From Bacillota bacterium (GTDB lineage: Bacteria; Bacillota; Clostridia; Oscillospirales; Oscillospiraceae), in the NCBI GenBank assembly GCA_029225225.1, contig JAQXWB010000012.1, positions 1 to 49,667 on the forward strand: a stretch of 49,667 nucleotides of DNA, given 5' to 3'. The position numbers and the translations under genes are program-made. The notes under the pieces are model-generated. The model did not search any database. It was not told the origin of the DNA and saw nothing but the letters and a program-made list of their open reading frames with translations. This document shows, piece after piece, positions 8,217 through 12,677 of the stretch; the first letter of the stretch is position 1; each line of letters opens with the position of its first letter.

Positions 8217-8909
8217 ATGATTTACACAACAGAAGTACAGCATATGTGTCCGGTTGCAAAGGGCGCATACCACGGTCCCGCTCCCATCCCCGAAGAGGGC
8301 AAGTGGGTGCAGGCAAAGCAGATCAGCGATATTTCCGGCTTTACGCACGGTGTCGGCTGGTGCGCACCGCAGCAGGGTGCCTGCAAGCTGACCCTCAACG
8401 TGAAGAACGGCATCATCGAAGAAGCGCTTGTCGAGACGCTGGGCTGCTCCGGCATGACCCACTCCGCCGCAATGGCATCGGAGATTCTGATCGGCAAGAC
8501 CCTCCTTGAGGCACTCAATACCGACCTTGTCTGCGACGCCATCAACACCGCAATGCGTGAGCTGTTCCTTCAGATCGTCTACGGCCGTACCCAGAGCGCT
8601 TTCTCCGAGAACGGTCTTGCCGTCGGCGCTTCTTTGGAAGACCTCGGTAAGGGCCTGCGCAGCCAGGTTGGCACGATGTTCGCCACCAAGGAAAAGGGCC
8701 CACGTTATCTCGAGATGGCAGAGGGCTACTGCACCCGCGTTGCGCTGAATAAGGATGACGAGATCATCGGTTACGAGTTCATCAACCTCGGCAAGATGAT
8801 GGACTTCATTAAGAAGGGCGACGACGCCAATGTCGCGCTGGAGAAGGCCAAGGGCCACTACGGTCAGTTCGACAACGCCGCGAAGTACATCGACCCGCGT
8901 CAGGAATAA
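8217..8909 (+). CDS. IscU/NifU-like iron-sulfur cluster assembly scaffold protein
   Basis: A 230-residue protein that resembles the NifU N-terminal/IscU scaffold family. Cysteines lie at positions suited to cluster or metal binding: C49 and C56 (GWCAPQQGAC) and C77 in ETLGCSGM, the region that in IscU-type proteins reads GCxxS. It lacks the C-terminal NifU thioredoxin-like domain. It is the first gene of a two-gene unit, 16 bases before the GGGtGRT gene, behind a consensus promoter. In Clostridia this pairing is seen repeatedly, but its client is not known to me. Family assignment is fair; biochemical role is inferred. Confidence 0.8.
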   Translation: MIYTTEVQHMCPVAKGAYHGPAPIPEEGKWVQAKQISDISGFTHGVGWCAPQQGACKLTLNVKNGIIEEALVETLGCSGMTHSAAMASEILIGKTLLEALNTDLVCDAINTAMRELFLQIVYGRTQSAFSENGLAVGASLEDLGKGLRSQVGTMFATKEKGPRYLEMAEGYCTRVALNKDDEIIGYEFINLGKMMDFIKKGDDANVALEKAKGHYGQFDNAAKYIDPRQE

Positions 8910-8925
8910 GAAGGAGGACGGCACA

Positions 8926-9927
8926 ATGGCTTTGTTTGAAAGTTACGAAAGAAGAATCGACAAAATCAACGGTGTCCTCGCGCAGTACGGCATCGGCTCC
9001 GTTGAAGAGTGCAGAGAAATCTGCAAGGAAAAGGGTTTTGATCCCTACGAGATCGTCAAGGGCATTCAGCCCATCTGCTTTGAAAACGCCTGCTGGGCAT
9101 ATTGCGTCGGCGCTGCCATCGCAATCAAGTCCGGCGTGAAGTCCGCTGCGGACGCCGCTGAGGCAATCGGCATCGGCTTGCAGGCCTTCTGCATTGACGG
9201 CTCCGTCGCCGACGATCGCAAGGTCGGCATCGGTCACGGCAAGCTCGGCGCAATGCTCCTGCGCGACGATACTAAGTGCTTTGCGTTCCTCGCAGGTCAC
9301 GAGTCCTTCGCCGCCGCGGAAGGCGCAATCGGCATCGTCCGCAACGCGAACAAGGCGCGCAAGGAAGAGCTGCGCGTGATCCTCAACGGCCTTGGTAAGG
9401 ACGCTGCACAGATCATCTCCCGTATCAACGGTTTCACCTATGTCCAGACGCAGTTTGACTATTTCACCGGTGAGCTGAAGATCGTCCGTGAGATCCGCTA
9501 TTCCGAGACGGAGCGTGCAAATGTCCGCTGCTACGGCGCTGACGATGTCCGCGAGGGCGTTGCCATCATGCACCACGAGGGTGTCGATGTCTCCATCACC
9601 GGCAACTCCACCAACCCCACCCGCTTCCAGCATCCCGTCGCCGGCACTTACAAGAAAGAGTGCATCGAGCAGGGCAAGAAGTACTTCTCCGTTGCCTCCG
9701 GCGGCGGCACAGGTCGTACCCTGCATCCGGACAACATGGCAGCCGGCCCCGCTTCCTATGGCATGACCGACACCATGGGCAGAATGCATTCCGACGCGCA
9801 GTTCGCAGGCTCGTCCTCCGTCCCCGCGCACGTCGAAATGATGGGCTTCCTCGGCATGGGCAACAATCCCATGGTCGGCGCTACCGTCGCTGTCGCAGTT
9901 GCAGTCAGCGAAGCACTCAAAGACTAA
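8926..9927 (+). CDS. GGGtGRT protein
   Basis: A 333-residue member of the family named after its motif; GGGTGRT is at residues 259-265. Cysteines in PICFENACWAYCVGAA (residues 45-60) could bind a metal or cluster. It is alanine- and glycine-rich and has no signal peptide, so it is cytosolic. The start is the ATG with GGAGGA upstream; the longer ORF in the track begins inside the previous gene. It is cotranscribed with the scaffold-like protein and ends at a hairpin terminator. The molecular function is unknown; the context suggests iron-sulfur or redox enzyme maturation. A fragment of a second copy lies just downstream. Confidence 0.88.
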   Translation: MALFESYERRIDKINGVLAQYGIGSVEECREICKEKGFDPYEIVKGIQPICFENACWAYCVGAAIAIKSGVKSAADAAEAIGIGLQAFCIDGSVADDRKVGIGHGKLGAMLLRDDTKCFAFLAGHESFAAAEGAIGIVRNANKARKEELRVILNGLGKDAAQIISRINGFTYVQTQFDYFTGELKIVREIRYSETERANVRCYGADDVREGVAIMHHEGVDVSITGNSTNPTRFQHPVAGTYKKECIEQGKKYFSVASGGGTGRTLHPDNMAAGPASYGMTDTMGRMHSDAQFAGSSSVPAHVEMMGFLGMGNNPMVGATVAVAVAVSEALKD

Positions 9928-9956
9928 TCGGTTTTCTTCCCATTCCATGGTAATGT

Positions 9957-9986
9957 AGCGGTCTGCCACCGGCAGACCGCTCTTTA
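9957..9986 (+). terminator. Terminator after the GGGtGRT gene
   Basis: An 11-bp stem AGCGGTCTGCC / GGCAGACCGCT with an ACC loop, then CTTTAATT. The U-tract is short but the stem is perfect. Confidence 0.75.
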
Positions 9987-10017
9987 ATTCCCATCCGCAA
10001 TGCTGCGCATTGCTCTC

Positions 10018-10067
10018 CCATGGTCGGCGCTACCGTCGCGGTTGCAGTCGAAGAATCGCTCAAGTAA
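10018..10067 (+). pseudogene. Fossil of a second GGGtGRT gene, last 16 codons only
   Basis: The segment from CCATGGTCGGCGCTACCGTC to TAA nearly repeats the 3' end of the intact gene (near 9870-9927). It encodes MVGATVAVAVEESLK and a stop, against MVGATVAVAVAVSEALKD in the intact copy. The rest of that copy is missing. A 17-bp palindrome GCAATGC-TGC-GCATTGC sits directly before it at about 9999-10015. It is followed by its own strong terminator, as a gene end would be. Best explained by a former tandem duplicate deleted down to its tail. Confidence 0.8.
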
Positions 10068-10088
10068 TTCACCCCAATACACAGAATT

Positions 10089-10130
10089 CCGCCGCTCCCT
10101 CAAATCACAAGGGAGCGGCGGTCGTTTTTT
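10089..10130 (+). terminator. Terminator after the GGGtGRT fossil
   Basis: A 12-bp stem CCGCCGCTCCCT / AGGGAGCGGCGG with a 9-nt loop, followed by TCGTTTTTT. It is a stronger terminator than the one at 9957. Confidence 0.9.
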
Positions 10131-10163: not shown

Positions 10164-10291
10164 CGGGCGGATAATATCCGCCCCTACAGCGCAAATTGGT
10201 TCGACGGTTGTAGGGGCGGCTATTAGCCGCCCGCGTTGTCCACACACAGTCGGCGATTCCTGCACGCGCCGCGTACATGTCCCCGCTCTAC
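10164..10291. repeat. Facing pair of REP-like palindromes plus a half element
   Basis: CGGGCGGATAATATCCGCCCC followed by TACA (10164-10188) and TGTAGGGGCGGCTATTAGCCGCCCG (10209-10233) are the same 25-base palindromic element in opposite orientation. A half element of a related type, GTACATGTCCCCGC, is at 10273-10291. They fill the space between the fossil's terminator and the next gene. No coding potential. Confidence 0.75.
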
Positions 10292-10861: not shown

Positions 10862-12628
10862 TCAAAAAGTGGTGCAGAAGCGGTGGAAGATCGCGGCGAC
10901 TTGACAACGGCTCGCATTGCCTGCCGGCATCAGATACAGACCGTCCTTTTCATTGCTTCCGGTGATCATGCCGGTGCCGACCGCCCAGCTCACGGAATCA
11001 GCCGCCCAGCTCGAAACCTTTGCATAATCCGCAAAACCTGCAAGCATGGCGCAATCCTCGCTGTCATAAACACCTTTGAACTGCGCATAGCGGCAGAGGA
11101 TCGTTGCAAGCTGTTCACGGGTAATGTTCGCCTCAGGAGCAAACTTTCCTTCGCCGACACCCTTGACGATCTCATTCTCCGCTGCCCAAATAATGGCCTC
11201 CGTATACCACTCGCCGGCTTTTACATCCTTGAACGGATTCTTCCCGCTGTGCGTCGGGCTGTTCTCAATGCGGTACAGTACCGTTACAATCATCGCACGC
11301 GTGCAATTTCCGTTCGGGTCAAACTTGTTGTTGCCGACACCGTTCATTATGCGGTTGTAATAGGCATATTCCACATCGCCGTAGAACCAATCGGAGGTCT
11401 TCACATCGTCGAAGAACATGGAGGGCATCGGAGATTGCACCTTCGGGAAGGTGTAGGAGACCTTCATCTCCTTAGCACTTTGGGAAACAATCTTTGCAAG
11501 CTTTCCGTTGATATAGGGCTTGACACTTTCGGGGAACACATAGCCTTCTTCCGCCTCCAGCGTAACGACAACTGTATACACCTTATCCGGCTCGAATTTT
11601 GCGTCGCTCGGATCCCAAGAGACATTTGCAATCGTGTAGCCTTCATAGCAGTCCGGCAGGTTCGCGGCCGTTGTAATGCTCATGTCAAGGACAGGCTCAT
11701 CCGTCATTACAGCAACGCCGGATATCTCCTGCAGCTTTGGGAAGGTGTAGGAGATCTTCATTTCGTCAGCACTTTGGTAGATGACCTTTGCAACCTTTCC
11801 GTTGATATAGGGCTTGACGCTTTCAGGGAACACATAGCCTTCTTCCGCCTCCAGCGTGACGACAACCGTGTACACCTTATCTAACTCGAATTTTGCGTCG
11901 CTCGGATCCCAAGCGACATTTGCAATCGTGTAGCCTTCATAGCAGTCCGGCAGGTTCGCGGCCGTTGTAATACTCATGTCGAGGACAGGCTCATCCGTCA
12001 TTACCGCAACACCGGTAATCTCTTGCTTGCGCTGTACCTTGACCGCATCAATGCCAATGGCGAACTGATCGCTGGCCTCATGATGACGGAACACAATGTG
12101 AACGGTCTGCCCCACGTATTCGCTCAGGCTGAGTTCACGATGCGCAGGCGTATCGCAGTCTTCCCCTTTCGCAAGCGTTTCACTGAACAGGAGCGTCTCG
12201 CCCTTGCCCGCAGCAAAAACATAGACACTGTAATGCTCTGCGGTTTTTAACGGACTCTGCGCAAAGACGTCATAAGTGAGATAAACATCGCCGGAAGCAG
12301 GAATCTCGATTTCGGGAGAATATGCCTTGTTATCCGGTGTCAGCGGCAGGTTCGTGTTGTTGTCAAAAGAATAACTGAACAGAGCGCAGTTCCCTTCAGT
12401 ATGTCCGTAAGCATTGCCGACCCCACCGTCGTCAACCTTTCTGACCCAGCCTTGTCCGTCGCCGTCTGCGTCAACAAAGCTCCACTGCTCCAACTCCGCC
12501 TCGGTCTCAAAACCGCAGGAATACAGCGTCTCTCCGCCTGTCGCAGCCGCGCTCATACCGAGGGCAGGCAGCAGGGATAGCAAAAGGCAAACCGCCAGCA
12601 GCGCAGAGATCATTTTCTTGGTTTTCAT
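10862..12628 (-). CDS. Secreted SLH-domain protein with a MAM/cleaved-adhesin-like domain and tandem repeats
   Basis: A 588-residue surface protein. A signal peptide (MKTKKMISALLAVCLLLSL, cleaved near AAATGG) is followed by a jelly-roll-like domain at about residues 35-205, resembling choice-of-anchor J/cleaved adhesin domains (YSCGFETEAELEQW). Two 98-residue repeats starting I(T/S)GVAVMTDEPVLDM follow, then three SLH repeats (FFDDVKTSDWFYGDVEYAYY, NPFKDVKAGEWYTEAIIWA, FADYAKVSSWAADSV) that should hold it to the wall polymer. GGAGG precedes the ATG at 12628. The ligand of the N-terminal domain is unknown. A degraded piece of another SLH protein lies just upstream. Confidence 0.88.
   Translation of the reverse strand: MKTKKMISALLAVCLLLSLLPALGMSAAATGGETLYSCGFETEAELEQWSFVDADGDGQGWVRKVDDGGVGNAYGHTEGNCALFSYSFDNNTNLPLTPDNKAYSPEIEIPASGDVYLTYDVFAQSPLKTAEHYSVYVFAAGKGETLLFSETLAKGEDCDTPAHRELSLSEYVGQTVHIVFRHHEASDQFAIGIDAVKVQRKQEITGVAVMTDEPVLDMSITTAANLPDCYEGYTIANVAWDPSDAKFELDKVYTVVVTLEAEEGYVFPESVKPYINGKVAKVIYQSADEMKISYTFPKLQEISGVAVMTDEPVLDMSITTAANLPDCYEGYTIANVSWDPSDAKFEPDKVYTVVVTLEAEEGYVFPESVKPYINGKLAKIVSQSAKEMKVSYTFPKVQSPMPSMFFDDVKTSDWFYGDVEYAYYNRIMNGVGNNKFDPNGNCTRAMIVTVLYRIENSPTHSGKNPFKDVKAGEWYTEAIIWAAENEIVKGVGEGKFAPEANITREQLATILCRYAQFKGVYDSEDCAMLAGFADYAKVSSWAADSVSWAVGTGMITGSNEKDGLYLMPAGNASRCQVAAIFHRFCTTF
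11435..12019 (-). repeat. Two-copy 294-bp in-frame tandem repeat
   Basis: The two units (12019-11726 and 11725-11435) encode 98-residue repeats that are almost identical over their first 75 residues and diverge slightly after PYINGK. The DNA is also nearly identical, which points to a recent in-frame duplication. Confidence 0.9.
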
Positions 12629-12677
12629 ATTGTTCCTCCTTGTCATTGTTTGTATTTTGAGTCATATAATGCTGAGA

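Follow-up and report, generated by a model that had tools for sequence, protein, structure and literature searches.

A recurrent gene-less unit at the doubled 3' end of the GGGtGRT gene in gut Oscillospiraceae: a candidate 3'-end-swapping cassette

In a 49,667-nt stretch of an Oscillospiraceae genome (contig JAQXWB010000012.1; hereafter, the window), the last codons of one gene occur a second time shortly downstream of its stop codon. Is this second end the residue of a lost gene copy, or was it displaced by DNA that arrived at the gene end? A sequence-only reading of the window took it for the remnant of a gene that once stood in tandem or was exchanged by recombination. Here, we analyzed the locus and compared it with relatives, of which 60 were searched by protein, 301 genomes of the family by tail pattern, together with 81 genomes of a second genus (g73); the sequence data are mostly MAG contigs.

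The doubled gene end in the window

The protein encoded by the host gene (Table 1) matches PF14057 over its full length (residues 4-330, 654 bits), which places it in the GGGtGRT family, and the gene is part of an iron-sulphur operon of a gut bacterium. The two ends of this gene noticed in the sequence-only reading were confirmed: one belongs to the intact gene (tail 1), the other is a second copy (tail 2), and the period is exactly 149 nt. Because the initial 24 nt of both tails (TCCCATGGTCGGCGCTACCGTCGC) form an identical block found just twice in the whole 2.09-Mb genome, both times at this locus, the identity is not due to chance. Each end is also followed by its own terminator or hairpin, as had been stated. 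For the hairpin behind tail 2, the terminator scan lists the minus strand alone, and the plus-strand call was made from the sequence. The 149-nt period, the inverted CCATGG and hairpin P3 between the tails, and the recurrence of the arrangement in relatives were absent from the earlier reading. The unit itself carries no gene. Tail 2 lacks two codons of the usual tail, and no close match to either window tail was found among the sequences compared; thus, the insertion in the window is probably older.

Table 1. Features of the GGGtGRT locus, in window coordinates
Feature	Position	Strand	Description
NifU-N-like gene	8217..8909	+	upstream in operon; adjacent, co-directional; PF01592 match weak, just over cut-off
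GGGtGRT gene	8926..9927	+	host gene, 3' end = insertion site; PF14057, E 3.2e-197
Inserted unit, as inferred	9868..10016	+	tail 1, spacer and body, 149 nt; offset constant at 149-151 nt in ten genomes
Tail 1	9868..9927	+	PMVGATVAVAVAVSEALKD, stop; final 19 codons and stop, used by gene
Core CCCATGG, start of tail 1	9868..9874	+	repeat starts here in 10/10 units
Spacer	9928..9944		unconserved among units, identity mostly 0.3-0.6
Inverted core CCATGG	9945..9950	-	left arm of closing stem P1
Hairpin P2, AGCGGTCTGCCACCGGCAGACCGCT	9957..9981		terminator-like
Hairpin P3, GCAATGCTGCGCATTGC	9997..10013		lies between the two tails
Core CCCATGG	10017..10023	+	right arm of P1; tail 2 begins here
Tail 2	10017..10067	+	PMVGATVAVAVEESLK, stop; 16 codons and stop; displaced second end
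Second terminator	10089..10129	+	12-bp GC-rich stem (hairpin 10089-10121), then TCGTTTTTT

Two further repeats lie downstream. The first, at 10164-10233, is a MITE-like palindrome with the sequence CGGGCGGATAATATCCGCCCCTACA, a 25-nt inverted repeat (92%); locus L022 has a comparable stretch behind the gene. Two tandem 294-nt repeats, 90% identical (11436-12023), are located within a minus-strand gene (10862-12646) for an SLH-domain, cleaved-adhesin-like protein.

Recurrence and predicted fold of the unit

We identified a second tail at a distance of 149-151 nt in ten genomes, each from a different species, and in all of them at the GGGtGRT gene end. These carriers represent three genera: the window's genus, g1 (G000, which is the window genome, G002, G003 and G012), g73 (G337, G347, G365, G383 and G385) and a third (G208). 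All ten units display the same order, namely, core CCSATGG with the tail, stop codon, spacer, inverted core CCATSGG, P2, P3, and again core with tail 2. The unit body (~75 nt) is conserved, with an invariant CTGCCACCGGCAG in P2 and the motifs AATGC and GCATT in P3 of every unit, whereas the spacers resemble one another little more than random sequences. To the left of the core, an inverted copy of the complete tail was detected in three of the ten units at an uncorrected p<0.05 and is unconvincing. Some relatives have half or decayed units (L004, L008, L012 and L006), G011 has a tandem version, and G315 and G379 have a longer version (282-291 nt). The site is empty in G001 and G004, the window itself being without a close relative that has a matching empty site. 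In G011, contigs C22 and C18 (L099 and L097) both terminate in the same tail-plus-hairpin repeat, which suggests that a tandem array of longer units broke the assembly.

For the ten units taken together, RNAalifold predicts a three-way junction, in which the inverted core pairs with the core (P1) and P2 and P3 form hairpins. Pairing is maintained in 98.8% of 240 cells across the ten units, two-sided changes occur at six pairs (shuffles average 1.3 such pairs, and slid controls give 0-1), and the folding of single units (six tested) reaches z of about -5 to -7. P1 comprises 6 bp in the window. In G003, the gene core is CCGATGG and the inverted core of the unit is CCATCGG, so that P1 is retained; in this one event, the inverted core follows the target sequence. 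Behind P2, the window has a weak T-run, resembling a terminator. However, the T-run is missing from the g73 units, and thus termination is not the sole role of P2.

Repeated gain, foreign tails and alternative origins

In a 92-sequence gene tree, built with a quick method, the ten short units correspond to ten changes and every occurrence is isolated. Each occurrence thus represents a separate gain or loss of the unit, about ten in all. An origin as the remnant of a GGGtGRT duplication in tandem would agree with the second gene end in the window, but it is at odds with the constant period, the conserved body, the lack of any trace of a second gene body in 10 of 10 units and these separate gains or losses, and we give it almost no credence. 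The tandem part of the earlier interpretation is therefore not supported, whereas exchange by recombination gains support from the CCATGG-bounded unit, the empty sites and the foreign tails in relatives.

The identity of the body does not track that of the gene. Between genera, G208 and G337 are 0.94 identical in the body versus 0.84 in the gene, whereas within a genus, G337 and G365 show 0.82 versus 0.92. Counting against the cassette reading in its simplest form, the bodies of some pairs diverge more than tail 1 of the same pair (0.77 versus 0.96 for G383 and G365), so the unit is not simply a single block passed on by descent.

In three g73 genomes (G383, G365 and G385), the tails likewise indicate acquisition. 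Their tail 1 sequences are 0.94-0.96 identical to one another, but on average only 0.76-0.77 identical to 42 native tails of their own genus, and the closest match is a gene end from g1; tail 2 of the same genomes is native-like. The earlier suggestion that the second end might be closer to the gene of another genus is thus borne out in these three relatives for the upstream tail, and not for the downstream 'fossil'. Counting against displacement of the older end, the native-looking tail in G337 and G347 is tail 1 and not tail 2. The DNA past tail 2 in G383, G337 and G347 is the native DNA that follows the single tails of relatives. Within nine genomes, the two tails differ by 68 synonymous nucleotides and 5 non-synonymous codons, with 26% synonymous changes expected at random, under no selection; the differences being mostly synonymous, each tail must have served as a functional gene end during its divergence, prior to their being joined. 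We consider it probable, as we do for the interpretation of the unit as a cassette as a whole, that the units were acquired repeatedly at the same spot and not inherited.

Alternatively, the unit could be immobile, and homologous recombination could have moved gene ends between species along with a regulatory 3' region that is old and was inherited vertically. The core and tails would supply the homology, and the upstream tails of g73 units are g1-like. However, it is the body, rather than the tails or spacer around it, that shows the high shared identity, and regulation has no need of a second tail, which makes this scenario unlikely. Still less probable, in our view, is that tail 2 is kept for a function of its own, as a small peptide or a cis-acting RNA. 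Its second codon is ATG, the frame is open in 10 of 10 units, with mostly synonymous differences from tail 1, and a structured body is compatible with a cis-acting RNA; but there is no Shine-Dalgarno-like sequence ahead of the ATG, the tail sits behind a terminator-like hairpin, and it is decayed in G000, G337 and G007 and missing from most relatives.

Integration at gene ends and comparison with known systems

Larger elements occupy the same site. Between two GGGtGRT tails, we found elements of 8.6 kb (G353), 8.9 kb (G406), 10.7 kb (G401) and 23.1 kb (G193), each encoding a tyrosine integrase (PF00589), and G021 carries a similar integrase-bearing element split across two contigs. Because all these insertions, and a shorter one in G359 described next, have in common at least CCCATGG plus the tail, the GGGtGRT gene end is an integration hotspot; our literature searches returned no description of this 3' end as an integration site. 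In G359 (C25, locus L180), two tails 1.4 kb apart may delimit a cassette with cargo: a single ORF (1190-2155) lies between them and encodes GIY-YIG and DUF4116 domains. An integrase of the G021/G353 type was considered as a helper of the short unit and rejected, being absent from the window genome and the other nine carriers, some of which are incomplete genomes (G012 and the remaining carriers were searched at E 1e-30 only).

These large elements raise the alternative that the gene end once received an element with an integrase, of which only the two ends were later spared. Decay to elements that keep attL and attR alone is known (PMC5704250), and PF00589 elements do sit at this gene end. However, independent decays would not all yield 149-151 nt with the same two hairpins. 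Pattern searches, viral contigs included, found no large element that shares the ends of the short unit; neither the right-end nor the hairpin pattern matched in viral contigs, and the right end, in the form seen in the window's genus, occurs at the GGGtGRT locus alone and only in short units. Such decay is, accordingly, an improbable source of the unit.

A covariance model built from the GGGtGRT unit and run on the g73 genomes matched the unit hairpin at further loci, behind tRNA-Asp, -Leu, -Tyr, -Arg and -Val genes. The units at these tRNA ends are 78-108 nt long, are bounded by GGACTCG and CGAGTCC (inverted T-arm copies) and terminate in a repeated tRNA 3' end, which can extend to all 14 nt past the core; in 9 of 13, an inverted copy of the remaining tRNA end is present on the left side (p<0.05). 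Such hairpin units occur singly or in tandem (L211, L214, L215, L247, L251, L252, L253, L256, L257 and L266), and the tandem arrays join units that differ in sequence. A search of the window's own genome for the tRNA-end pattern gave no match. No Rfam family scored above its gathering threshold for the GGGtGRT units or the tRNA arrays, in which the tRNAs alone scored. The shared plan and hairpin suggest that the tRNA-end and GGGtGRT units belong to one family. More speculatively, gut Oscillospiraceae might contain structured cassettes of ~75-110 nt that are flanked by inverted copies of the target core, carry the 3' end of the target and swap it at tRNA genes and at one protein gene, in the manner of gene-less attC cassettes and with a putative recombinase. 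Separately, g73 genomes contain an interspersed palindromic repeat, CTTCCCCC...GGGGGAAG (L222, L234, L242, L248 and L250), which holds a related GCTTGCCACCGGCAAGC-type hairpin and is present in at least ten copies in G350.

Our favored explanation, which we hold to be probable, is that the window contains one copy of a recurrent, very small, non-autonomous cassette that swaps gene 3' ends at an integration hotspot. From the observed insertion, its recurrence and the foreign tails, we infer the recombination chemistry and present-day mobility as follows. The GGGtGRT 3' end would serve as the attachment site for integrating elements. The 149-nt unit would bring a coding tail with its stop codon, a spacer and a foldable body of ~75 nt with the inverted core, and would join the gene at the 7-nt core, leaving the gene complete with the incoming tail and pushing the old end downstream, where it appears as a 'fossil'. 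This would occur by site-specific recombination at the core, with a putative recombinase supplied in trans. The substrate may be a folded single strand, given that the closing stem is retained and that 149 bp would make a very small double-stranded circle. The pattern of conservation fits such a mechanism, with a tail that encodes a working protein end, a body that is recognized and a spacer that is free to vary. On this view, what looked like the fossil of a gene becomes an insertion that can be seen to recur at a strongly conserved gene of gut bacteria, and it hints at structured units without genes as a class that exchanges the 3' ends of genes, tRNA genes included. If mobile, such units would count among the smallest that move site-specifically and would account for the scattered tRNA-end arrays in these genomes.

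Several known systems share features with the unit. In Escherichia coli, the tyrT/rtT repeats stand in tandem behind a tRNA gene only, and each ends in a copy of the 3' end of that gene. The GGGtGRT units resemble them in carrying gene-end copies, but differ in their location behind a protein gene and in having no Rfam match. Like the elements mobilized by tyrosine recombinases (ICEs, IMEs and prophages, with CIMEs and accretion), the unit uses a gene 3' end that is also taken by PF00589 elements, the target gene is restored by the incoming 3' end, the displaced end lies downstream, and tandem accretion is seen (G011). Unlike the elements of this group, it is 149 nt long and gene-less, has a conserved hairpin body and an inverted core copy, and occurs repeatedly and independently. 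As in CIMEs, the flanks are attL- and attR-like, a direct repeat of core plus tail at a site used by integrase elements, and the unit encodes no functions for recombination or transfer. With integron attC cassettes, the unit shares a structured site, core sites at its two ends that are complementary and show covariation, and, at the related tRNA sites, tandem arrays. However, it lacks a cargo gene, its fold is branched in place of one long hairpin, and it does not qualify as an integron cassette: the core is CCSATGG and not GTTRRRY, and in 17 genomes no integron integrase (TIGR02249) scored above the cut-off, only other tyrosine recombinases. Although without a demonstrated parent element, an integron integrase or an integron core, the unit is nearest to CIMEs and integron cassettes.
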